Source of the DNA: Halothermothrix sp.
Lineage (GTDB): Bacteria; Bacillota; Halanaerobiia; DY22613
DNA length: 64,000 nucleotides
NCBI GenBank assembly: GCA_016841825.1
Contig: JAENYK010000001.1
Location: forward strand, 62,001-126,000
Reading direction: 5' to 3'
The position numbers and the translations under genes were made by a program. Every line of letters starts with the position of its first letter. Within the stretch, counting starts at the first letter, position 1. The notes beneath the pieces were generated by a model. The model made no database searches. It saw only the letters and a program-made list of their open reading frames with translations, and was not told the origin of the DNA. Below are positions 35,474-60,750 of this stretch, one piece after another.

Positions 35474-37135
35474 TTATTTTAATCTAAATTGACTAACAAC
35501 CCTTTTCAATTCTGATGCCATCTCTTTTAAGGTTGCAGCAGAAGCAGAAACCTGTTCCATAGTCGCTGTCTGTTCTTCAGTAGAAGCAGAAACTTCTTCT
35601 GCGGAAGCAGAAGTCTCTTCTGCAATACCAGCAACTTCATGTACCCGATCAATAATCGTATCAGATAGCTTAGCTGCCTGTTGTAAAGCCTGATTTGCTT
35701 CTTCTGAACCCTTTAAATTACTCTGTGATGCATCAGTAATCTGATTAAATAATTTGCCAGCCTCATCAACAACCTGCACGCCATCTTTGACTTCTTTCTT
35801 TCCGGTCTCCATAGCTTGACTGGCCCGTTTTGATTCTTCCTGAGTCTCTTTAATTAAACCTTTGATCTCATTCGCTGACTTCATAGATTCTTCAGCTAAT
35901 TGCTTAATCTCATCAGCTACTACACTAAATCCCCTCCCGGCTTCTCCGGCTCTTGCAGCTTCAATAGCAGCGTTTAAAGCCAGAAGTTGGGTCTGATTTG
36001 CAATACTATCAATCAAATTGACAATCTCACCAATTTGCGTAGTCTTTGTAACCAGGGTTCCAATTACATCAGAAATCTGCCCAATCACTGAATTAATATT
36101 ATTCATCTGAGCGATAACATTAGTTATAGATTTCTTACCTTGTGATGCAGTTTCTAAAGTAGTAGATGCAAGTTTAAACGCTTCATTCCCCAATGAAGAA
36201 GAATTATCCAGATATTGAACCAGTTGTGTAACGGCATCCATTGTTTGATTCAAATAATTGGTCTGGTCACTGGCCCGATTAGCAACCTCTTCAATGGAAG
36301 CTGATACTTCTTCAGATGCAGCTGAGGAATCTTCTGATGCTTCAGCTAATTGAACGCCTGATTCCAATAAGCTATTTGAAGCCTGAGTAACTTTTTCCAA
36401 TACATCAATCCAATTGTCTAATAACTTCAGGAAAGAACCAACCAAAACTCCAATTTCATCTTTCCTGGTATGATACTTTTTAATTTTAATTGAAGTAAAA
36501 TCAAGATTTTCAGAAATATAGGTAACATCAGTTGATACTTTCTTAATTGGAGTAGAGATTGAATTGGCAAAATAAATAGCTACTCCAGCTATAATAACTG
36601 CAAAAAGTGCGATAAACAATAACATACTATTACGCATGTTCCGTGCAGATTCTAAAATCTCATCCTGGGGAGCAATAGCCCAAATAACAGCTCCCAGATG
36701 TGAATTATAAGCTAAAAAGCTTTCAAATTGTTTCCCACTATATTCAAATTTGTAAGAACCTTCTTTTTGGGCGATCGCCCCTGCAATATACTCTTCTTCA
36801 GCTAAATTTTGAGAAACCAAATCTGCGTCAGGATGATAAACCATAGTACCATCCTCTTTAAGTATGGCCAAATAACCTGTCTTAAAATATTTCTCATTAA
36901 CAGCCTTCTCTGATAAGGTAGTGAAAACAATCTGCTGCAGAAAACCTGTTAGTTCCCGATCTCCTACTTCTTGATTTACTATCTGAGCAAAGGCCTGCAA
37001 TTTGGCTTCCAAAAACAATCTTCCTTGTTCCTCTAAAGCTGTTGTTGTTGTAGAGGTGGAATAAATAGCTATAATCCCCATAGGTAACAACGATATTAGA
37101 AGGAACAGGACGACTAATTTAAATCTAATGCTCAC
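35474..37135 (-). CDS. Methyl-accepting chemotaxis protein
   Basis: 553 residues. TM1 lies at about 7-24. An extracytoplasmic Cache-type sensor (about 30-165, with [17 protein letters not shown] and GAVIWAIAP) comes next, then TM2 at about 170-190 and a HAMP region. The long cytoplasmic coiled coil has the conserved tip [20 protein letters not shown]. The [16 protein letters not shown] stretch is typical of single Cache ligand pockets. No C-terminal CheR tether is seen. It lies 38 bp downstream of a polyamine-type binding protein gene, probably in one transcript. Confidence 0.93.
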
Positions 37136-45625: not shown

Positions 45626-46864
45626 TTAATCGGTCTGTCGCTCTGGTTTCTCCCGTCTTACCATGTCCAATGGTCGTACAGGATGATTTACTGGGATACG
45701 GATAATCTGATGGGGATGAGGTGCTTCCTCAATCTGATTATTCTCCTCATCTTTGATATAGGTCAGATCAGCAGTGAATACCCTGGTCTTCGGACCAAAG
45801 ATCTCGATCCGATCACCCCGGAAAAACTTGCTTCGAACCTCAATGACTGCTTCTTTAGTCCCAGGCAGATAATCGGTGACAAAACCCATAAAATCATAAT
45901 TGCGGACATAGGCCGAACTCTGATAGTTATGCTCATCTGATCCGGGAGGGTTGAAGTAGAAACCGGTAATGTAACTCCGATGGCTGACTTTCTTTAACTC
46001 CTCCAGCCAGATAGGATCAAACTGATAGTTATCGGGATCTTCCAGATAACTATCAATAGCTTGACGATAGACATAGGTAGTAGTGGCTACATAGTGTAAA
46101 CTCTTCATTCTGCCTTCAATCTTCAAACTATCCAGACCCAGTCTGACCAGTTCCGGAATGTGTTCAATCATACACAGATCTTTGGAATTGAATACATATG
46201 TACCGCGTTCATCTTCGAAGACCGGGTAATAGACTCCCGGGCGTTTTTCCTCAACCAGAGCATATTTCCAGCGACAGGATTGGGCACACTGGCCCAGATT
46301 GGCATCTCGATGGGTCATATAGTTACTCAAAAGACACCGCCCTGAATAGGAGATACACATGGCGCCATGAACAAATACTTCCAGACCTACATCGGGAACC
46401 CGTTCTCTGATCTCAGCGATCTCCTTTAGCGACAACTCCCGGGCCAATACTATGCGTTCAACCCCCTGTTGATGCCAGAACTGAACACTACGCCAGTTAA
46501 CTGCATTGGCCTGGGTACTTAGATGAACTTCCATCTCCGGAATGGTCTCCCGCACTATAGTTAAGATACCTGGGTCAGCAACAATCACAGCGTCTACCTG
46601 TAACTCTGCAAGATGCTTCAAATATGTCGGCAGTCCCCCAAGATCATGATTATGAGGGATAATATTCACTGTAACATAGACTCTTACTCCTCTTTGATGG
46701 GCAAATTCAATCCCTTCACGCATCTCATCAAGGGTAAAGTTATCTGCCCCTTCACGCAATCCGAAGTTCTGTCCACCGAGATAAACAGCATCGGCGCCAT
46801 ACAAAACTGCTACTTTTAGTTTTTCCAGACTACCGGCTGGTGCTAATACTTCTGGTCTTTTCAT
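45626..46864 (-). CDS. trhP: Peptidase U32-family tRNA hydroxylation protein TrhP
   Basis: 412 residues. RPEVLAPAGSLEKLKVAVLYGADAVYLGG is the U32 start. VFVHGAMCISYSGRCLLSNY and the NLGQCAQSCRWKY cysteine cluster mark an Fe-S binding family, and SLKIEGRMKSLHYV the C-terminal block. TrhP proteins help form 5-hydroxyuridine at tRNA position 34. The gene overlaps the TrmR gene by 4 bp (ATGA), the next enzyme of that pathway. In B. subtilis two adjacent U32 genes (yrrN and yrrO) follow yrrM; here only one does. Confidence 0.9.
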   Translation of the reverse strand: MKRPEVLAPAGSLEKLKVAVLYGADAVYLGGQNFGLREGADNFTLDEMREGIEFAHQRGVRVYVTVNIIPHNHDLGGLPTYLKHLAELQVDAVIVADPGILTIVRETIPEMEVHLSTQANAVNWRSVQFWHQQGVERIVLARELSLKEIAEIRERVPDVGLEVFVHGAMCISYSGRCLLSNYMTHRDANLGQCAQSCRWKYALVEEKRPGVYYPVFEDERGTYVFNSKDLCMIEHIPELVRLGLDSLKIEGRMKSLHYVATTTYVYRQAIDSYLEDPDNYQFDPIWLEELKKVSHRSYITGFYFNPPGSDEHNYQSSAYVRNYDFMGFVTDYLPGTKEAVIEVRSKFFRGDRIEIFGPKTRVFTADLTYIKDEENNQIEEAPHPHQIIRIPVNHPVRPLDMVRREKPERQTD

Positions 46865-47520
46865 TCTGCGCTCACTTCCTTTAGACTTACTGCCATACCA
46901 TCACCAATAGGTATAATAGATGAGGTCAATTGTCGATGATTCATTACCAGTTGAATGTAATCTGTCATCCGATTGACCATGGTTTTCATCCTTCGACTGG
47001 GGATTAATTCCTGATCGGCTACCCAGCCATTTAATAGAACATTATCTGCAATAATCAGACCTCCAGGATTCAAAAGCTTAATCGCATCTTCGAAAAAGGT
47101 CAAATATTGACCTTTGGCTGCATCCAAAAATATCAGGTCAAACTGAGTGTCCAGTTTGGAGATCAGATCAATGGCATCACCAACAATATTTTGAACCTGT
47201 TCTTCTATTCCCGCTGTTTTAAAGTTAAGCCAGGCTTCATAGGCCCGATCTTCATTGATCTCGATGGTTTTGATTAGTGAGTCTGGCCCCGCTGCTCTGG
47301 CCATCCAGATGGTAGAGTAGCCGATAGCTGTCCCAACCTCCAGAATAGTCTTCGGTCGATGTACTCTGATTAGAAAATGCAAAAACTGGGCAACATCAGG
47401 ATGAATTATCGGAATATGTTCATTGGCCGCCTGCTTCTCCAATCTTACGAGAAACGACTCCCTCGGCGGCACTGTATCGGTCAAAAATGTCTGTAACCAT
47501 TCAGGCAAAAGTTCACCCAT
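46861..47520 (-). CDS. trmR: tRNA 5-hydroxyuridine methyltransferase TrmR (O-methyltransferase)
   Basis: 219 residues. A class I SAM methyltransferase (YrrM/TrmR group): TILEVGTAIGYSTIWMA is the SAM motif I, IKTIEINEDRA follows, and DLIFLDAAKGQY and GGLIIADNVLLNG are metal-linked blocks. It methylates hydroxyuridine at tRNA position 34 to methoxyuridine. The start is ATG 47520, seven bases after GGAGG. It lies between mltG and trhP, as in B. subtilis. Confidence 0.9.
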   Translation of the reverse strand: MGELLPEWLQTFLTDTVPPRESFLVRLEKQAANEHIPIIHPDVAQFLHFLIRVHRPKTILEVGTAIGYSTIWMARAAGPDSLIKTIEINEDRAYEAWLNFKTAGIEEQVQNIVGDAIDLISKLDTQFDLIFLDAAKGQYLTFFEDAIKLLNPGGLIIADNVLLNGWVADQELIPSRRMKTMVNRMTDYIQLVMNHRQLTSSIIPIGDGMAVSLKEVSAE

Positions 47521-47546
47521 GCCTCTCCCTCCAAATAACCTCAATT

Positions 47547-47608: not shown

Positions 47609-48631
47609 TTAGTCAAGGTATTTCTGTACTGCTCTGGAGTGTTCTTCATAAGTTCGACTATAATAAGTGGTACCATCAGGCAGTGCAAAATAGAAGAAAT
47701 ATGGTACATCTTCAGGGTTTAGTGCTGCCTGTATAGATTTTAGACCCGGATTAGAGATCGGTCCAGGAGTTAAGCCAGGATGTTGATAGGTGTTATAGGG
47801 TGAATCAATCCTGGTATCAGCCGTTGATAGTCTATCTTTCTTCACTCCCAGGACATAGAGGACACTGGCACAAAGCTGCAGATTCATCCGCTGCTCAAGA
47901 CGGTTATAGACAACTCCACTAATCATCGGGCGATCTGCATCCAACTTGGCCTCTTCTTCAATCAGAGAGGCAATGGTAATGACCTCCCAGATGTCCAAAG
48001 TTCGTCCCCGTACCTGAACTTCTTCGCTTCCGACGACTTTTTCAAAACGTTTAAGCATGATCTTTATCAGATCGGTAGCGGTCGCTTTGCGAGGTATCTG
48101 ATAGGTATCCGGGAATAAAAATCCCTCTACCTGGAACTCCACATCCTGTTCAGGCATAAAATCTAACTTATACGCTCTGGCCGCTGTGAGAAATTCTTCA
48201 GCAGTGATGTCAGTCTTCTCTCCAATCAGCGAAGCCATCTCCTTAACTGTCAGTCCTTCGGGAATGGTCAGCTTAAAGGTAGCCACATCACCTGCCACAA
48301 TTCTGTTGATAATCTGTGAAATAGACATATTGGTGGTAAATTCGTAATAACCAGCCTTAAGTTTACTCTGTACTCCCTTAAATCGGCTAAGGGCAACAAA
48401 GTATGAAGATTTGCGAACCAGACCTGCTTCTTCTAAAGATCGGGCTATACTGGTAAGATTACTCCCTGAAGGAATGTTCACCTCCACCGATTTTGGAGAA
48501 AAATAAGCGACTGGCCCAATTAAATACTGGATATAGAAGATAACCCCTCCCAGAAATACCAGAACCAGCATAATTAAACTGACAACCTTTTTGGAATCAA
48601 GGTGGGTTTTCGCGGGTAAAAGTTGAGCCAT
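47609..48631 (-). CDS. mltG: Endolytic transglycosylase MltG
   Basis: 340 residues. An N-terminal membrane helix (about 17-38) is followed by a LysM-like segment (VNIPSGSNLTSIARSLEEAGLVRK) and the YceG/MltG catalytic domain with ASLIEEEA (catalytic Glu), VVYNRLEQRMNLQLC and SPYNTYQHPGLTPGPISNPG. It cleaves nascent glycan strands near the membrane. ATG 48631 follows AAAGGGTGAG. It has its own promoter next to the old end of the CRISPR array. Confidence 0.93.
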   Translation of the reverse strand: MAQLLPAKTHLDSKKVVSLIMLVLVFLGGVIFYIQYLIGPVAYFSPKSVEVNIPSGSNLTSIARSLEEAGLVRKSSYFVALSRFKGVQSKLKAGYYEFTTNMSISQIINRIVAGDVATFKLTIPEGLTVKEMASLIGEKTDITAEEFLTAARAYKLDFMPEQDVEFQVEGFLFPDTYQIPRKATATDLIKIMLKRFEKVVGSEEVQVRGRTLDIWEVITIASLIEEEAKLDADRPMISGVVYNRLEQRMNLQLCASVLYVLGVKKDRLSTADTRIDSPYNTYQHPGLTPGPISNPGLKSIQAALNPEDVPYFFYFALPDGTTYYSRTYEEHSRAVQKYLD

Positions 48632-48667
48632 AAACTCACCCTTTCTATTATAAAGTAACATATTTTC

Positions 48668-48697
48668 ATTATAACTTAAAGCGACTGGATTTTGCAA
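48668..48697 (-). promoter_or_regulatory. Sigma-A promoter of mltG-trmR-trhP
   Basis: TTGCAA and TATAAT on the minus strand at 18-bp spacing, about 30 bp before the mltG ATG. It lies only 67 bp from the last degenerate CRISPR repeat. Confidence 0.7.
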
Positions 48698-48763
48698 ATA
48701 TTTGTTGAGAGAAATTTGTGGTAAGGGTTATTTTTTATCCTTTCTGTTTATAGACACTTTGTT

Positions 48764-51432
48764 ATTTACACCTACTGTAGTTCTATTAAAAGTGTAAAGA
48801 AAAAATCATCTGTAACACTGCCATTGATATTTACATTCTACGGTAGTTCTATTAAAAGGACAATCCGATATCCCTTTTGTATAACATACTTGACATTTAC
48901 ATTCTACTGTAGTTCTATTAAAAGAGGGATTCCACGCGTACCCTCTAGACACCCTCTAAGATTTACATTCTACTGTAGTTCTATTAAAAGACCGTAACCT
49001 TTGCCGAATATTGGGACGGGTCGAACATTTACATTCTACTGTAGTTCTATTAAAAGGACGAGATTGCCAAAGGTCGAAGAATTAGATTGTCATTTACATT
49101 CTACTGTAGTTCTATTAAAAGTAATGGAGACCTCAAGCCTAACTCAAGCTAAACTTGATTTACATTCTACTGTAGTTCTATTAAAAGAATGCGAAAGATT
49201 GCAAACAATACCAGATGATTATACATTTACATTCTACTGTAGTTCTATTAAAAGGATAATGGTGCAGGCAAAACAACTATTGCTGATGCGATTTACATTC
49301 TACTGTAGTTCTATTAAAAGCAACTCGGGTAACCACAACACTGGTAACCGCAACACATTTACATTCTACTGTAGTTCTATTAAAAGATCAAGGAAAGGTT
49401 GCAATACACTTTTATCTACCATATTTACATTCTACTGTAGTTCTATTAAAAGTGTATTATCGTGCGTGCTTGTGCGTGCGGGTATTAAAATTTACATTCT
49501 ACTGTAGTTCTATTAAAAGGGTAGACGTGGCACAAATATCTTGTGATGGATTATAATTTACATTCTACTGTAGTTCTATTAAAAGACCCAATAATCAAGG
49601 TACTGTTTTTTGGTGATGCTACATTTACATTCTACTGTAGTTCTATTAAAAGTGTATCCGATCAGAGGGGGTTGAACGTAACCCAGATCATTTACATTCT
49701 ACTGTAGTTCTATTAAAAGGATCAAACATACATTTAAAGTATGTTTGTATATCTAATTTACATTCTACTGTAGTTCTATTAAAAGCGGTCACACTTACGT
49801 TGTATTCCTTATAGTCATCAATTTACATTCTACTGTAGTTCTATTAAAAGAAGAATTGTTGGAAGTCCATCATGCTTGCAATGATTATTTACATTCTACT
49901 GTAGTTCTATTAAAAGCAATAATGCTAAGCCTATGGTAGATAATGCAGACATATTTACATTCTACTGTAGTTCTATTAAAAGTAAGATGTATGTATTTCG
50001 CCATTCATCAGGTTGATCATTTACATTCTACTGTAGTTCTATTAAAAGATATCTTACACTGTGCAGGTTGTGATCATGTAATATATTTACATTCTACTGT
50101 AGTTCTATTAAAAGGTGCACTTAGATGCATATCAGCAACAAGGTAATAGCATTTACATTCTACTGTAGTTCTATTAAAAGCTAAAGGGGGATTTTGTAAC
50201 ACTAGAGGGAGGAGGCATTTACATTCTACTGTAGTTCTATTAAAAGAATCATCGTAACTGGCGAAGAGATCGCCTATTATGAATTTACATTCTACTGTAG
50301 TTCTATTAAAAGGCGGTGACAAAACTTGTAACAAAAGTACCTTTAGAGATTTACATTCTACTGTAGTTCTATTAAAAGAAGATAACTTCGCACCAAAGTT
50401 TATCATGGACGGACATTTACATTCTACTGTAGTTCTATTAAAAGCCGCAATTGAGGTAGGTTGTCCTAAAATCCGATTTTATTTACATTCTACTGTAGTT
50501 CTATTAAAAGCACCCTTTTGTGAGTGCTAGAAAAGCTTTCAAAATCATTTACATTCTACTGTAGTTCTATTAAAAGGGGGATTAAATCAATATGTATGCG
50601 TCCTAGTTGTTTATTTACATTCTACTGTAGTTCTATTAAAAGCAGGAAGCATTTGAGATGGTCAAAACGGAATCATTTATTTACATTCTACTGTAGTTCT
50701 ATTAAAAGGCTGTAGACCCCAAGTATGGCTGGGGATACAAAATCATTTACATTCTACTGTAGTTCTATTAAAAGATGGATGTATCCGATACATAGTGATT
50801 CTCAAACCGCATTTACATTCTACTGTAGTTCTATTAAAAGTATTGTTTACCTCTTTACAGGAAGGAGACACCTGGATTTACATTCTACTGTAGTTCTATT
50901 AAAAGCGTTCCTTCTCCTCACGAATAAACTGATCAATTTCAATTTACATTCTACTGTAGTTCTATTAAAAGCTTATATCAACTATTGACGATCAAAGAAA
51001 GATACGTATTTACATTCTACTGTAGTTCTATTAAAAGAAAGAGTTATACACAGTCCTGTGGCTTATGAGTGTTATTTACATTCTACTGTAGTTCTATTAA
51101 AAGCCTTGCGCCTTACAGCGTTAAGGAAGTTGAAATCAATTTACATTCTACTGTAGTTCTATTAAAAGGTCGAAACATATATCAGAGATGCAACTGGCAA
51201 AGACATTTACATTCTACTGTAGTTCTATTAAAAGTTGTCAGGGAGACATTTAGCAGATTTAAAGGAAGCAATTTACATTCTACTGTAGTTCTATTAAAAG
51301 CCAATCCATCGAAAATGTCTCTACCTTCAATCCTTTATTTACATTCTACTGTAGTTCTATTAAAAGTCAAAGATGGGCATAAACGAGAGCAACTGTAAGG
51401 GAATTTACATTCTACTGTAGTTCTATTAAAAG
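48764..51432 (-). CRISPR. Type I-B CRISPR array, 41 repeats and 40 spacers
   Basis: The 30-bp unit reads, on the plus strand, ATTTACATTCTACTGTAG then TTCTATTAAAAG. Spacers are 35-37 nt (mostly 36). The repeat at 48764-48792 is degenerate (29 nt), and that at 48829-48858 has one substitution; the others looked identical. On the minus strand the repeat ends GAATGTAAAT, like clostridial type I-B repeats whose last 8 nt form the crRNA 5' handle. So transcription runs minus, with the leader at 51433 on. Degenerate repeats at the left are then the old, trailer end, agreeing with orientation. Confidence 0.98.
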
Positions 51433-51617
51433 GCCGGCTTCCTTATACCGTTGCAATGCCAAGGTTTTTAGACGTGTTTTTGTCCATCGGACTTTTTTTT
51501 AATTAGTCAGCTGTTCTCTTCGTTCATTATCTCCAAAATAGTTCAAAAAACGTTATCCTATCTAGATTGTCGATCTACGAGGTTTTTTACATTACTATAG
51601 ATCGACAGATTTAAAAT
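51433..51617 (-). promoter_or_regulatory. CRISPR leader region
   Basis: 185 bp between the youngest repeat and cas2. It is A+T-rich with two T or A tracts. It holds a perfect 10-bp inverted repeat (51568-51577 with 51598-51607, loop 20) just past the cas2 stop, which could bind an architectural protein or end the cas mRNA. No convincing -35/-10 pair was identified. Confidence 0.7.
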
Positions 51618-51896
51618 CTAAAAAAAATTAGATGTCTTATCATCATTAATTCCCATAAATTCTTTGACCAACCATTTTTCATCCCTACTCTTAAAGATAA
51701 TCAAAGAATCCTGATCACTTCTAATATAATTGTTTAATTCCCTCTTTAATTTCATCAATTGTAATTCTGTCAAATTGCCCTCAAATACTGATTTTTGAAT
51801 ATGAGTTAAGTATTTTTTGCATATTTTAAATGTATTTCTAAGAACTTTAGGGCCAGTTTCATCCATTGTTATATCGTATATTAAGACTACATACAT
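51618..51896 (-). CDS. cas2: CRISPR-associated Cas2
   Basis: 92 residues of a ferredoxin-like endonuclease fold: MYVVLIYDI first strand with the conserved Asp, then LRNTFKICKKYLTHIQKSVFEGNLT. Cas2 dimerises and, with Cas1, integrates spacers. The frame opens with GTG codons, but ATG 51896 lies six bases after GGTGGTG. It is the last cas gene, next to the leader. Confidence 0.94.
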   Translation of the reverse strand: MYVVLIYDITMDETGPKVLRNTFKICKKYLTHIQKSVFEGNLTELQLMKLKRELNNYIRSDQDSLIIFKSRDEKWLVKEFMGINDDKTSNFF

Positions 51897-51901
51897 AAAA
51901 A

Positions 51902-52894
51902 TCACCACCAAATTTTAAATCCATTATATTCTTTTTCATCAATTATTTCCTTTATAAGTTTATAACATTCTAGTCTGATCAAATATCTATATGATACTTC
52001 TCGATTTAAATCTCTATGTAAGATTGTGCGTTTTAGCCTCTTATCATACTCCATTAATATTGTTCTTTTTGCAGGTTCCTTTAAATACAAAAAGTTAGAT
52101 TCTTTTTCAAAGTCATTTTCGGTAATCTGTTTTTTATTAAGAAGAGAAAATATCATTCGTTCTCCAATTAAAGGTTTGAATATTTCCGCCAGATCTAAAC
52201 ACAATGAAAATCTTTTTGTTCCTGGTTCATGCAAAAAACTTATTGTTGGGTTTAACTGAGTTTTATAGATTTCCGATAGCACTGTTGTATAGACAAGACT
52301 GTTTACAAAAGAAAGTAAAGAATTTATCATATTATCTGGTGGTCTTTTCACTCTTTTCTCAAAATTAATATCCTGCTTAACAATACTATTCCATGCCCGG
52401 TAATATATTTTTCTGATATTGCCCTCTATTCCCATAAGTTGACTAATGTCTGTCCCATTCCCCAGCTTATGAGTCAAATTTTGAATTTCTTTCATTGGAT
52501 CATCAAGGTCAACCCCTCTACCATTATAATACCTTAAATTTCTGTAAATGTTATAAGCAGCAGTACTTAATATCTCTTTTGCTATCTTAACTCTAGATTC
52601 ATGATTATCATATTTTTTTACCTGATTTACCAATAAATATCCACTAATATTTTTTTCTCTCGGATAAAAACTTCCACTGTAAAACCCATAATAATTAAAC
52701 ACATGAAGCACAATTTTTGCTTGCGACAAAAAATTCAACAATTTTGTATTCATCCCAACTTCCCCAAAAAGGTATATCTCTTCGGTAACTTCTGCTTTTA
52801 AATTCTTCTCATCCCCCTCTGTTGTAGTTATTACAATATTGTTATCTTTTCTCCTCAAATCTCCATTCCGAAAAATATAAAATGTTTCTCCCAT
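51902..52894 (-). CDS. cas1: CRISPR-associated Cas1 integrase
   Basis: 330 residues. Catalytic metal ligands are visible as Glu in LMGIEGNIRKIYY, His in SFLHEPGTKRFS and Glu in DLAEIFKPL. With Cas2 it captures and inserts protospacers. ATG 52894 follows GGGAGG by five bases; the frame runs 13 codons further up, overlapping cas4. Length is standard for type I-B Cas1. Confidence 0.96.
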   Translation of the reverse strand: MGETFYIFRNGDLRRKDNNIVITTTEGDEKNLKAEVTEEIYLFGEVGMNTKLLNFLSQAKIVLHVFNYYGFYSGSFYPREKNISGYLLVNQVKKYDNHESRVKIAKEILSTAAYNIYRNLRYYNGRGVDLDDPMKEIQNLTHKLGNGTDISQLMGIEGNIRKIYYRAWNSIVKQDINFEKRVKRPPDNMINSLLSFVNSLVYTTVLSEIYKTQLNPTISFLHEPGTKRFSLCLDLAEIFKPLIGERMIFSLLNKKQITENDFEKESNFLYLKEPAKRTILMEYDKRLKRTILHRDLNREVSYRYLIRLECYKLIKEIIDEKEYNGFKIWW

Positions 52895-52904
52895 ATCTAC
52901 CTCC

Positions 52905-53396
52905 CTATATATAACAGAGTTCATAATATGCACATTTTTTACATATAGATTTCTTAATAATCTCTGGCGGTTGCTTTAATAACATAATTTTTTCAATTTT
53001 ATTCAGAATATCTTCTAACTTTTGTTCATCTTTTTCAGTCAAAAAAACTTTCTCTCTTTTTCTTAAAAGCGGATAATCCAAAATTCCTTTCTCTATAGCA
53101 ATACCTTTTTTCTTCAATAACCAGATATAATACTTTAATTGCCACTTAGATGCTTCCTCAATCTTTCTAGATTTCTTAACTTCATGGATAATTCTCCAAT
53201 CTTTTAAAAAATCTATATTAATATTTTCATCGATTAGAATATTTTTCTTTTCTCTTTTGTAAGATGTTTCATCTATTAATTTCCCCATGCTTACAAGATC
53301 ACTACTCTGCTCCATTGTCAGATCGTTAACAAAATACCATAACTTTCTGCTACATACAAAGTAATAATAGACCATAACACCAGTTACTTTTTTCAT
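52905..53396 (-). CDS. cas4: CRISPR-associated Cas4 nuclease
   Basis: 163 residues of the RecB-like exonuclease family. One cysteine lies near the N-terminus (YYFVCSRKLWYF), and the C-terminal CKKCAYYELC supplies the other three for an Fe-S cluster. The middle shows GKLIDE and EEASKWQLKYYIWLLKK, the QxxxY motif. Cas4 trims prespacers and helps select PAM. It lies between cas3 and cas1. Confidence 0.92.
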   Translation of the reverse strand: MKKVTGVMVYYYFVCSRKLWYFVNDLTMEQSSDLVSMGKLIDETSYKREKKNILIDENINIDFLKDWRIIHEVKKSRKIEEASKWQLKYYIWLLKKKGIAIEKGILDYPLLRKREKVFLTEKDEQKLEDILNKIEKIMLLKQPPEIIKKSICKKCAYYELCYI

Positions 53397-53417
53397 GTTT
53401 TTAACCTCTCAAAAATT

Positions 53418-57264
<3,847 letters not shown>

Positions 57265-57275
<11 letters not shown>

Positions 57276-58944
57276 TTTGTTCTCCTCCATTCTTTTTACC
57301 ATCATCTTTTCCTTCAATTAATCCAGACACAAAAGCGTAACCAATAGTTTTGTATTGCTCTTCATCCCTTAAAGCTTCCAGGAAAATACTCGGTACGGTC
57401 TTCTGAACATATAAATAACAGTTAAGAACGGTATCCATAAACATATTATTATTGCAGGTTTTCAAAGCATTAAGTAATCTATAAGCAATACCATTAAGCT
57501 TGTCTTTTGATCCTTTACCTTTATACTCTTCTCTAAGATAATACCCTGAGGCATTAGCCGATTTTATAATATCTTTCTCAGTTTTTTGCATATAACCCAT
57601 CCCTTCCATTATTCTCAAATTAATAATCATCACCTTAACAACTTGCGAAATACTAAATTTACAATCTTTGGACTTAGATAACTTAAAAATCAGAAGCTTA
57701 TGTATTAAAGTAAATAAGTTTTGATTATTTAAAACACGATCAATCACAAGTTCATAAATATTAAAGTATGTTTTGATTTCCAAAAATCCACCAGTAATTA
57801 TTTTATTCAAATCATCCTTCGATCTATGTATGATACTCAGCATAGGCCGAGATAATATATTAAACGAATATTTATTATCCTTAAGTTTAATAATCTGGAT
57901 ATCTGCAAGTTCATATTTTATAGTTTCATTTGATTGCTCATTAATAGCATTTATCAAACTCTTATAAGTAAGAAGTGAGTTAAATTCAGTTTCTTGTAAT
58001 ATTTCCATTCGTATTTTGTTATTTATTCTTTTTGAATTTTCGAAGGTAGAGTTATCATTAATATATATGCCCTTATCATACGTATAAGTGAAACCGGCAG
58101 GCACACACGAATAAACTAATTTGCATAGAGGGCATACGGCAACATCATTAGCAAAATTCCAGACATGAGATGATTTTTTTCCTACATCAAAGCCAAAATT
58201 GTTTAAAAAGCACAAATCATTCTTTAAATTGCTAATTGGTTTATCGCAGGTAAAACAATTATATTTAAATTTAGATTTGTTATTTTCTATATATTTAATT
58301 GCAGGTTTGATAAAATATTCTTTATAGTCAATATATAAATCTTTTTCCTCAGTTTTTGGATTTAAAAAACATATTCCATTCCAAGCGTTTTTTATTATAC
58401 TATAGATTACATTCTTTGCAGCAAGGTATTTTTTACTTTTTTCTTCATTACAAAATTTTATTATTATCTTTAACTTTTCAAAAGTAGCTTTTATATCTGG
58501 AAGCTTATCCTCAATAATCTCCTGCTTTTTTAAATTAATACTATCTAAGACTTTTACCTTTCTTATAATATCTAACTCACTATTAATCAAATCATATGCT
58601 GATTTATAACTGGCACTATTTAAATATTTTTTAACTACGTTTTTTAAATATGTATTTAGAGCTTCTAAATCTTTCTCTTGAAAAGATTGTAAATCATTAT
58701 TCTCATGTTGCCGAATTACTTCTTCATAAGAGACTATTTTGTACCAGGAAAGAGTTTTCTCATACTTATCTATAAAATAATTAAAATACTTTTCCTCAAA
58801 ATTTTCAAAAAGGTCAGTATCAAATTCAATACTTTGACCTTTTGATTCCACATAATCTCCAGCATTCTCTAAAATATTATACAATCCCACTAAGCCAGCA
58901 TTATATAACCAATCACTCATTTCTAATCTTATTTTTTCACCCAT
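57265..58944 (-). CDS. cas8: CRISPR-associated Cas8 (Cst1, CXXC-CXXC type)
   Basis: 559 residues. A central zinc-binding part has CFTCDKP (around 240) and VCPLCKLVYSC (around 280), the two C-x-x-C pairs that name the Cst1 family of type I-B (Tneap). It is the large Cascade subunit and recognises PAM. The gene starts 13 bp after cas6, with GGGAGGTG before ATG. The divergent sequence is normal for Cas8. Confidence 0.88.
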
Positions 58945-58957
58945 CTACTCACCTCCC

Positions 58958-59686
58958 TTAAACAATATCCAACATTCCAAAGCCACTGCTGCGTTTACTA
59001 CCTATTCCCGCCTTGTATAAATATTCTAAAATATATGGTTGCCCTTTAATTCTTATCCCTCCTACATTAGAGAGAACAACTATTCCATAATTTTTTACCT
59101 TCACTTCTTTATTGTTCTCTGCTATTTCGACACATATCTCTTCAAAATCTGGCAGTACTCTTTCCCCATATTGATTTTTTAACTGATATTGTAAATTATT
59201 CATGAAAATAGTCTGTCCAGTTTCGTTATTTAAGGAATGGTACCAGGTGGTTTTATTGTCTCCATGATGTTCCCTAACTACAATCGGACTCATTGTTTTA
59301 AATATTGCTTCATGACCATAAATTGGCTTCTCCTTAACTATATTTATATTTCCAATAGTGATAGTATTATTTTTAATCGAGTGTTGTTTGCCTTTGCTAC
59401 TCATGAAAGAATTAAAAAACATAATTCCATCCTCTGAACTATATGTAGAAAAATTCAGGATTATCTTCTTTTCTGGAATCATGATTTCTTCTCTTAAAAA
59501 TTTACAATCTCCCAGATACAATGCAAAAGTGAAGTTTTTAATCTGAGTTAAATTGTTGTTATATAATTTGTCGTAGTATTCTTGGTTATAAGAACTAAAG
59601 CAACTTTTTAGTATAGACATAATGATTCTGTTTTTGTCTTTAGGAACGATTTCATTTTCTAATAAAAGCTCTGTAGAAAATCTCAT
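58958..59686 (-). CDS. cas6: CRISPR-associated Cas6 pre-crRNA endonuclease
   Basis: 242 residues. A double RAMP fold is indicated by the start (RFSTELLLENEIVPKDKNR) and the C-terminal G-rich loop GIGSKRSSGFGMLDI. It cuts within the repeat to leave an 8-nt 5' handle. It is first in the cas operon, with GGGGGAGGTG before the ATG. Confidence 0.93.
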   Translation of the reverse strand: MRFSTELLLENEIVPKDKNRIIMSILKSCFSSYNQEYYDKLYNNNLTQIKNFTFALYLGDCKFLREEIMIPEKKIILNFSTYSSEDGIMFFNSFMSSKGKQHSIKNNTITIGNINIVKEKPIYGHEAIFKTMSPIVVREHHGDNKTTWYHSLNNETGQTIFMNNLQYQLKNQYGERVLPDFEEICVEIAENNKEVKVKNYGIVVLSNVGGIRIKGQPYILEYLYKAGIGSKRSSGFGMLDIV

Positions 59687-59764
59687 TAGCTCACCTCCCC
59701 CTAATGTTATTTAGTTCTGTCAATTTACGATAACGGTATATGTTAATAATACTCCTTTCATTTA

Positions 59765-59793
59765 ATAATATATTAAAATGGTAAATTAATCAA
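59765..59793 (-). promoter_or_regulatory. Candidate promoter of the cas operon
   Basis: TTGATT and TATTAT on the minus strand at 17-bp spacing, about 80 bp before cas6. The region is extremely A+T-rich, so chance matches are likely. The gap 59794-59966 holds nothing else recognisable. Confidence 0.4.
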
Positions 59794-59966
59794 CTATAAA
59801 AATCATTATAACTAAAATTTTAATAACTGTTTTTCCGATTAATTGTATGATAGGTAAAATAATACTTATAGTTATTTAATATACAGCATATATGTGGTTT
59901 TATGCAAATCAATATGAGTTTATCAACTGATATTTAGGAAAAATAATTTGTCCTTCCCTACCAACC

Positions 59967-60004
59967 AAAAAAAGACCCCCAATCGTCATCCCGATCGGAG
60001 GTCT
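59967..60004 (-). terminator. Terminator after yrzB
   Basis: A 13-bp stem (59973-59985 with 59992-60004, two wobble or mismatch positions) followed by seven T within nine bases on the minus strand. It ends the ruvX-yrzB transcript before the cas operon. Confidence 0.88.
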
Positions 60005-60021
60005 CGCTATCAACCTGTACT

Positions 60022-60327
60022 TTATTTCTCTTCCTCAAAATCATCCAGTTCATCCAATGCTTCCTGAACCCGTGTCAGTTCAGTTTCATCTTCAACAGCA
60101 GCCAGGTAAGAGTCACCTGTCTCTGGGTCTTCATCAACCCGTAAAGCTATGTACTCGCCCAGGCTTACTTCATCTTCATGACAGAGGATCAGATATTTTT
60201 TACCTGATACTTCCACATCCTCTTCAATGATAAATCTCTCCTTATTCCCTTCCTCATCTTCCAGAATCAAATATCCTTGTTCAGCATCTACACTGAATGT
60301 TCCGCCTGCATTGTTATCTGTCATCAT
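60022..60327 (-). CDS. yrzB: DUF1292 protein YrzB
   Basis: 101 residues, very acidic, DUF1292 fold: YLILEDEEGNKERFIIEEDVEVSGKKYLILCHED. Function is unknown. In many Firmicutes it sits directly between ruvX and mltG; here mltG lies about 11 kb away beyond the CRISPR-Cas locus. AGGAGTG precedes the ATG. Confidence 0.92.
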   Translation of the reverse strand: MMTDNNAGGTFSVDAEQGYLILEDEEGNKERFIIEEDVEVSGKKYLILCHEDEVSLGEYIALRVDEDPETGDSYLAAVEDETELTRVQEALDELDDFEEEK

Positions 60328-60336
60328 TATTCACTC

Positions 60337-60750
60337 CTATCTATAATATCTTTCCAGATAGCCCTGCAAAATAATCACAGCAGCTAATTTATCAATCACC
60401 TGCTTCCGCTTTTGCCGACTGATATCTCCTTTGATCAGAGTTCGTTCAGCCTCAGCGGTGGAAAGTCGTTCATCCCATGTCTCTATCGGTATTGACAGAC
60501 GATTCTTTAACTTTTCAACGAATTTTAAGGTCTCCTCTGCCCTGGGACCATAAGTCCCATTCATATTTCGCGGTAAGCCGACAACAATCCGCTCAACCTC
60601 CTCATCTTTGATGAGTTCATCCAATCGTTGAAAATCTTCTTTCCAACTGGTTCGTCTGATAACCTCTTTGCCCTGAGCGGTAATCTTTAAAGCATCACTT
60701 AAGGCAACCCCAATGGTTTTATCACCATAGTCTAAAGCCATTATTCTCAA
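60337..60750 (-). CDS. ruvX: Holliday junction resolvase-like RuvX (YqgF)
   Basis: 137 residues of the RNase-H-like YqgF family. MRIMALDYGDKTIGVALSD has the first catalytic Asp, RIVVGLPRNMNG the middle, and WDERLSTAEAER the second acidic site. It acts in 16S rRNA 5' maturation and perhaps Holliday junction cleavage. The start is TTG 60750, eight bases after GGGAG, one base past the previous stop. Confidence 0.94.
   Translation of the reverse strand: MRIMALDYGDKTIGVALSDALKITAQGKEVIRRTSWKEDFQRLDELIKDEEVERIVVGLPRNMNGTYGPRAEETLKFVEKLKNRLSIPIETWDERLSTAEAERTLIKGDISRQKRKQVIDKLAAVIILQGYLERYYR

Follow-up and report, generated by a model that had tools for sequence, protein, structure and literature searches.

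How a whole adaptive immune system came to lie between two genes that adjoin each other in most relatives is the question raised by a locus of Halothermothrix sp., a member of the Halanaerobiia. The window, 64,000 nucleotides of contig JAENYK010000001.1 (G000:C22:62001-126000, where G000 is this genome, a 5.08-Mb draft in 43 contigs), holds a type I-B clustered regularly interspaced short palindromic repeats (CRISPR)-Cas cassette between yrzB and mltG. The locus is bounded, at 48631-60327, by the start codons of mltG and yrzB, and hence includes yrzB. Our reading, to which we give a probability of about 0.86, is that the lineage acquired by horizontal transfer a complete and probably working cassette of type I-B (Cas8b1/Cst1), which settled between the terminator of yrzB and the promoter of mltG, breaking no gene. 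The case for the gain is built on the genes and array themselves, on the junction being empty in relatives, and on the foreign affinity and base composition of the cas genes.

The gene order, all on the minus strand, is ruvX-yrzB, then cas6-cas8b1-cas7-cas5-cas3-cas4-cas1-cas2, the leader and the array, then mltG-trmR-trhP, and all of these genes are open in the list of open reading frames (ORFs). The cas genes, yrzB and mltG were named by family models; ruvX, trmR and trhP were recognised by eye and from the matching gene order of G001, a genome of the same family. NCBIfam, Pfam and PADLOC models concur on type I-B with Cas8b1/Cst1, the Cas8 score being modest in NCBIfam and strong for Cas8b in PADLOC (Table 1). 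The type I signature, a Cas3 helicase with an HD nuclease domain, is present, as are the subtype signature Cas8b, Cas7, Cas5 and Cas6 of the I-B kind, and a Cas1-Cas2-Cas4 adaptation module with an adjoining repeat-spacer array and leader. Among solved structures, Cas1 matched eleven distinct sequences and Cas8 none at E 0.01; Rfam gave no match in the window at gathering thresholds. An earlier note on this DNA had described a whole type I-B locus on one strand between ruvX-yrzB and mltG-trmR-trhP, and the ORFs, the models and the array confirm it.

The array consists of 30-bp repeats and spacers of 35-37 bp. Of its 41 repeats 39 are perfect; the remaining two, nearest mltG, carry 7 and 1 mismatches, and this degeneration, together with the leader boxes discussed below, places the leader beside cas2. 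Folding of the repeat does not go beyond chance (z -0.19), and within its own genome the array matches only itself. From its genes and array, the cassette is probably working. By analogy with what is known of type I-B systems, the leader would drive an array transcript that Cas6 would cut into CRISPR RNAs, Cas8, Cas7 and Cas5 would form the surveillance complex, Cas3 would degrade targets, and Cas4, Cas1 and Cas2 would add spacers at the leader end beside cas2.

In relatives the two flanking genes usually stand close together. MltG was sought in 61 genomes (G000, one of the same family, 57 of the same class and two others of the phylum) and found in 58, and DUF1292, the family of YrzB, in 57. 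In 56 genomes the two share a contig and a strand, the MltG genomes left unpaired being G008, with no DUF1292 match, and G050, where it is on another contig. The distance between them is 11 to 1,733 bp in 54 of the 56, against 11,414 bp in G000 and 15,257 bp in G017. In the latter the interval (L056 1995-16812), some 15 kb, is taken up by ORFs that are repeat-rich and lipoprotein-like, among them one of 2,475 amino acids, and no cas gene was seen there by eye; it appears to be an independent insertion at the same site. The gaps read in seven relatives contain one similar ORF of about 100-130 amino acids in five cases, one of 460 amino acids in G060 and none of at least 60 amino acids in G022, these ORFs being described without a family search. 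In G057, a class relative whose own I-B cassette lies on a different contig, the four genes ruvX, yrzB, mltG and trmR are so close that they overlap (ruvX and trmR identified by eye). An MltG search of further contigs returned a single distant locus, at 31% identity, and was uninformative.

The sole same-family genome returned, G001, has the order trhP, trmR, mltG, a gap of about 800 bp, yrzB and ruvX, and both flanks of the cassette are collinear with this one block at 69-77% DNA identity. It has no Cas1 match, Cas1 being found in 34 of the 61 genomes. Its gap contains an element resembling a miniature inverted-repeat transposable element, with imperfect 41-bp inverted arms (L044 4230-4270 and 4404-4444, 76% complementary). 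Given the short distances in nearly all pairs, the order in G001 and the overlaps in G057, the junction is, as far as genome comparison goes, old and usually closed or nearly so, with different inserts in different lineages.

The cas genes themselves point outside the class. Cas8 is sparse, occurring in 17 of 398 genomes of the phylum in one draw and in 16 of 398 in another that favoured relatives (G000 counted in both), and its best other match in both draws is G285, of the same phylum and another class. Identities between G000 and G285 are 78% for Cas1, 77% for Cas2, 73% for Cas4, 59% for Cas3, 66% for Cas5, 78% for Cas7, 57% for Cas8 and 62% for Cas6, against 35% for MltG and 53% for TrhP. 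With the class relative G006, Cas1 is 48% and Cas8 28% identical, MltG 41% and TrhP 66%; with G057, of the same class, Cas1 is 57% and Cas8 36% identical. By these identities the kinship with a bacterium of another class is much stronger for the cas genes than for the host genes.

Phylogenies agree with this. In quick trees, in which a long branch and uneven composition were flagged and of which the host-marker tree comprises two genes, G000 joins G285 with support 100 in the cas tree, and joins G001 and then G006 in the marker tree. In approximately unbiased tests, for which the pairs were picked after the identities were known, the cas data reject G000 with G006 (p 3e-44) and with the closer class relative G057 (p 6e-5), and the marker data reject G000 with G285 (p 3e-79) and G000 with G001 and G285 (p 6e-7). 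The earlier proposal that the 11-kb locus was gained at the yrzB-mltG junction is thus supported by the cas and host identities, by the conflicting trees and by the empty junctions, relatives having yrzB by mltG without the locus in 54 of 56 pairs, G001 included.

At the DNA level the cassette aligns to G285 over 48765-59518 and 59575-59698, and so extends from the array to a point 12 bp short of the cas6 start codon. In G285, cas6 is split between the aligned blocks by two ORFs (L078 12448-14962), which resemble an IS21 pair. The cassette is collinear in G285 and other carriers, including Acetoanaerobium noterae NZ_CP154629.1, a record filed as a plasmid in PLSDB despite its 2.6 Mb; in G250 neither cas1 nor cas2 lies beside the cassette and the cas4 match is partial. 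In ten other carriers with MltG located the cassette is not at mltG, nor does it lie there in G057 and G026. The trhP matches of two carriers have in-frame stops, two TAG in G285 (L108) and one TAA in G413 (L103).

Base composition sets the cassette apart from its surroundings. The GC content of the cas genes is 27-34%, and at third codon positions that of the six long cas ORFs is 0.23-0.29, compared with a mean of 0.357 (standard deviation 0.042, minimum 0.273) across 33 further long ORFs in the window, which bears out the earlier remark that cas codon use is more A+T-rich than that of the neighbours. As sole proof of transfer we rejected base composition, which alone proves little since the low GC is common to the G285 copy.

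The predicted terminator of yrzB, with its 14-pair stem, is the strongest of six terminator-like sites, and a promoter-like site of mltG starts 66 bp from the array end; both scans are near chance overall (6 terminator-like sites against 4.4 in shuffles, 61 promoter-like sites against 63.6). Of the two signals that the earlier note had assigned, the terminator holds up, and the mltG promoter is to be taken as a promoter-like site only. On these predicted signals both halves of the block may stay expressed. Since the cassette starts downstream of the yrzB terminator and stops short of the putative mltG promoter, its position is adequately accounted for by selection for harmless insertions.

Several observations weigh against a horizontal gain by this lineage. 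No recognisable recombinase gene lies at either edge (by the ORF list, with small ORFs judged by eye), and from yrzB to mltG there is no long ORF beyond the eight cas genes and frames derived from the array. Inverted repeats at both edges were sought and none was found, nor was a target-site duplication between the flanks, so that the edges show none of the marks of a transposon or integrative element (recombinase, terminal repeats, target duplication). The search for duplications or short homologies proposed with the earlier note yielded as its longest shared word 11 bp (59803-59813 and 48666-48676), which lies in promoter-like -10 sequence; as a target-site duplication it was rejected, since 9 of 100 mononucleotide shuffles reach at least 11. 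The G285 copy is itself low in GC (32%), and one non-cas ORF of the window (35474-37135) is nearly as AT-rich at third positions. Only a single same-family genome is at hand and, as its MltG is just 70% identical, the intergenic DNA cannot be aligned with it and the exact edges cannot be fixed. The position relative to MltG covers ten of the first-draw carriers, G137, G147, G206, G232, G256 and G390 being left out. Of the 40 spacers, 39 find nothing at E 1 or better in the phage and plasmid collections.

The rival account to be taken most seriously is that the family's ancestor already carried the cassette here, from an older horizontal gain, and that G001 lost it by deletion. The family is represented by two genomes only, and the G001 junction is unusually long (800 bp), with the imperfect inverted-arm element, its 851-bp distance being among the longer ones of the 56 pairs. 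However, G001 lacks a Cas1 match and its junction holds no repeat-like word that clearly beats shuffles: the best has 11 mismatches against a null mean of 12.4 and minimum of 10, and the G285 repeat fares no better (13 against 12.9). A tblastn search for cas remnants gave only weak matches of at most 42 residues (best E 0.024, for an 800-base subject). Moreover, the gaps of the other 54 paired genomes are either too short to hold cas genes or, in G017, show none by eye. We therefore consider such a loss improbable, and it would alter the date of the gain rather than the fact of it. Far less credible still is an artefact of assembly or contamination, in which a foreign CRISPR contig was joined into G000. 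The draft has 43 contigs and 4.72% estimated contamination, and the composition of the cassette is unlike that of its flanks. Yet the cassette sits within a 715-kb contig, and as a single block of the sister genome matches both flanks in order, a chimera would need a precise 11-kb insertion between two adjacent genes; two further cas loci of other types in G000 also make CRISPR carriage normal there. Horizontal gain by the lineage at an old junction consequently remains the preferred explanation.

Table 1. Coordinates, strand and supporting evidence for features of the yrzB-mltG region (positions in the window)
Feature	Position	Strand	Evidence
ruvX, upstream flank	60337..60750	-	ORF; same order in sister genome G001, L044
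yrzB (DUF1292), last gene before cassette	60022..60327	-	Pfam DUF1292 2.9e-11
intrinsic terminator of yrzB	59972..60005	-	14-pair stem, then T run
cas6, crRNA-processing nuclease	58958..59686	-	TIGR01877 above cut-off; PADLOC Cas6b
cas8b1 (Cst1), large subunit of Cascade	57265..58944	-	TIGR01908 30.1 bits, cut-off 19.4; PADLOC Cas8b 512.8 bits, 3.9e-154
cas7 (Cst2/DevR), backbone of Cascade	56391..57317	-	TIGR02585 211.8 bits
cas5 (Cas5t)	55661..56404	-	TIGR01895 above cut-off
cas3, HD nuclease and helicase	53418..55664	-	TIGR01587 4.6e-68, TIGR01596 1.7e-23, both above cut-off
cas4	52905..53396	-	TIGR00372, PF01930 above cut-off
cas1	51902..52933	-	TIGR03641, type I-B Cas1b, 431.5 bits
cas2	51618..51911	-	TIGR01573, PF09827 above cut-off
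leader of array	51433..51617	-	between cas2 and first perfect repeat; boxes common to other carriers
leader box 1, TGTCGA, start -175	51602..51607	-	leader comparison
leader box 2, TCGACA, start -141	51568..51573	-	leader comparison
leader box 3, TGGACA (one mismatch to TCGACA), start -54	51481..51486	-	leader comparison
CRISPR array, 41 repeats / 40 spacers, degenerate end toward mltG	48763..51432	-	repeat analysis
spacer matching Dcm-type DNA methylase gene of Flavobacterium phages	49188..49224	-	33/37 bases; six phage records, E 1e-5
putative mltG promoter TTGCAA-18-TATAAT	48668..48697	-	10/12 matches; whole scan at chance level
mltG, downstream flank	47609..48631	-	TIGR00247 259 bits; ATG start; TTG start at 48697 also open
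trmR	46861..47544	-	ORF, named by eye; composition computed from 47526
trhP	45626..46864	-	ORF, named by eye

The content of the array gives one hint of past encounters. At E up to 1, the array matched 11 records of the phage collection. Nine are accounted for by spacer 49188-49224, which matches six Flavobacterium phages and, at E 0.8, three Cellulophaga phage records, in DNA methylase genes where these are annotated. In Flavobacterium phage FPSV-S27 it aligns to a gene annotated as a Dcm-type site-specific DNA methylase, and in-frame reading of spacer and phage gene gives CERLQT(I/L)PDDY in both, presumably a conserved stretch of cytosine-5 methylases. Flavobacterium and Cellulophaga phages infect an unrelated phylum. 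The spacer was probably derived from such a methylase gene in some phage or other element, and the phages named would be homologues rather than the likely target.

The two remaining records, both of one large phage (E 0.2), match the repeat over a 34-base stretch in single copy, and were set aside as coincidence. In the plasmid collection, the only match at E up to 1 is to Acetoanaerobium noterae and is driven by the repeat; at E 9, words of 22 bases (staphylococcal) and 32 bases (Salmonella), seen in a sample of 20 of 445 matching records, were taken as chance. Three of the 40 spacers were scanned exactly in viral contigs, with 0 matches each. All 40 lack a match in the rest of the window, and against the fetched loci (five that overlap the window excluded) they gave two 16-base matches only. 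From the single phage match no clear adjacent motif is readable as a protospacer adjacent motif.

The leader adds a second line of interest, since three short boxes recur in it among carriers of the cassette. The leaders of seven carriers (G000, G285, G412, G413, G228, G250 and A. noterae) are 25-42% identical when aligned ungapped from the first repeat, a figure that understates their kinship, gapped alignment giving some shared stretches, chiefly around the first two boxes of G000 and G285. All seven have an exact box 1 (TGTCGA); box 2 (TCGACA) is exact in four and within one base in six; box 3 (TCGACA) is exact in five and within one base in all. The spacing from box 1 to box 2 is 34 bp in every case (with two mismatches in box 2 of G250) and box 3 starts at -53 or -54 from the first repeat throughout; the linker between boxes 2 and 3 varies from 85 to 92 bp. 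When three further leaders that lack the boxes (G153, G405 and G136) are included, the ten leaders have 20 of their 30 box slots filled to within one mismatch, whereas 500 mononucleotide shuffles gave 0.94 on average and never more than 4. The figure is descriptive, as the slots were chosen after the boxes had been seen.

Less circular is a scan of 398 genomes with the box pattern, which gave 9 matches in 7 genomes against 7 for a reversed control, hardly an excess by number; G000 itself was unmatched, its box 3 being off by one base. By place, in seven of the nine the first repeated word of an array follows box 3 at 52-60 bp, a count that covers the pattern matches alone. Two of these seven, in G285 and G413, are loci from which the pattern came; the other five, two in G066, two in G150 and one in G112, all of one genus, precede arrays whose repeats are unrelated. 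New matches thus stand at leaders in five of seven cases, the other two (G394 and G245) having no array in the fetched stretch. Above the family cut-off, Cas1 is missing from G112, which has none at all, and from G066, which has a sub-threshold piece about 2.3 kb from one box site; G150 has Cas1 about 7.7 kb from one of its sites. G236, a fourth genome of the genus, has Cas1 and no pattern match.

The boxes do not mark all type I-B leaders, a possibility we rejected because, among 30 Cas1 loci fetched, the layout occurs in five of 22 with a detectable array (G000, G285, G412, G413 and G228, some boxes being off by one base). Also rejected was a feature of the host genome, as the words in the two other cas loci of G000 form no layout (positions by eye); no three-box arrangement was seen beside the arrays of types I-C and III-A there. 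Isolated words occur in other leaders, TCGACA at -182 in G303, G410 and G175 and TGTCGA at -214 in G428. In G115, G392 and G355 (L142, L143 and L144), TTGTCG and CGACAA stand 42 bp apart in leaders of another repeat family, at differing distances from the array.

The three boxes may be a signal for spacer acquisition, and as part of that signal they would have arrived with the cassette. More tentatively, and with somewhat more doubt than confidence on our part, the leader could consist of two rigid modules joined by a flexible linker, with a dimeric protein bridging the pair and box 3 by looping and so guiding Cas4-Cas1-Cas2 to the first repeat. Such an arrangement would be a counterpart in Bacillota, independent of integration host factor (IHF), of IHF-guided integration, and the signal would move with the cassette and recur before arrays of unrelated repeats in another family. 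Leader motifs have also been the subject of papers for types I-A, I-F and II-A. The work of Santiago-Frangos in 2021 reportedly concerns, to go by its title, the phasing of leader motifs that facilitates adaptation in other subtypes, and that of Buyukyoruk in 2025 is likewise said by its title to deal with leader motifs. We make no claim that the boxes are unpublished. In one report, leaders of type I-B arrays of Clostridioides difficile have two conserved inverted-repeat motifs (PMC8406132); boxes 1 and 2 here likewise form an inverted pair, a likeness in form.

As a system the cassette is of a known kind. It shares gene content, the order from cas6 to array and 30-bp repeats with the type I-B Cas8b1/Cst1 branch (TIGR01908/TIGR02585/TIGR01895, 'TNEAP'), for which G285, G412, G413 and A. 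noterae served as comparison carriers. It differs from that branch not in gene content but in its chromosomal site, which is unshared with the twelve carriers checked. Elsewhere G000 holds a type I-C locus (Cas8c/Csd1) and a type III-A locus (Csm1, Csm4, Csm5) with different repeats (L045 and L046, in G000:C41 and G000:C2).

Taken together, the locus is a case of a familiar type of system acquired by ordinary horizontal transfer, in a place that is unusual but does no harm, and comparison with a single sister genome bears this out as far as it can. Should the leader boxes be confirmed, they would provide a testable recognition rule for type I-B spacer acquisition and a route to the factor that reads it. 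The locus is also a clean case in which an entire adaptive immune system arrived and left a host gene block undamaged, at a junction that in a relative carries a different large insert.

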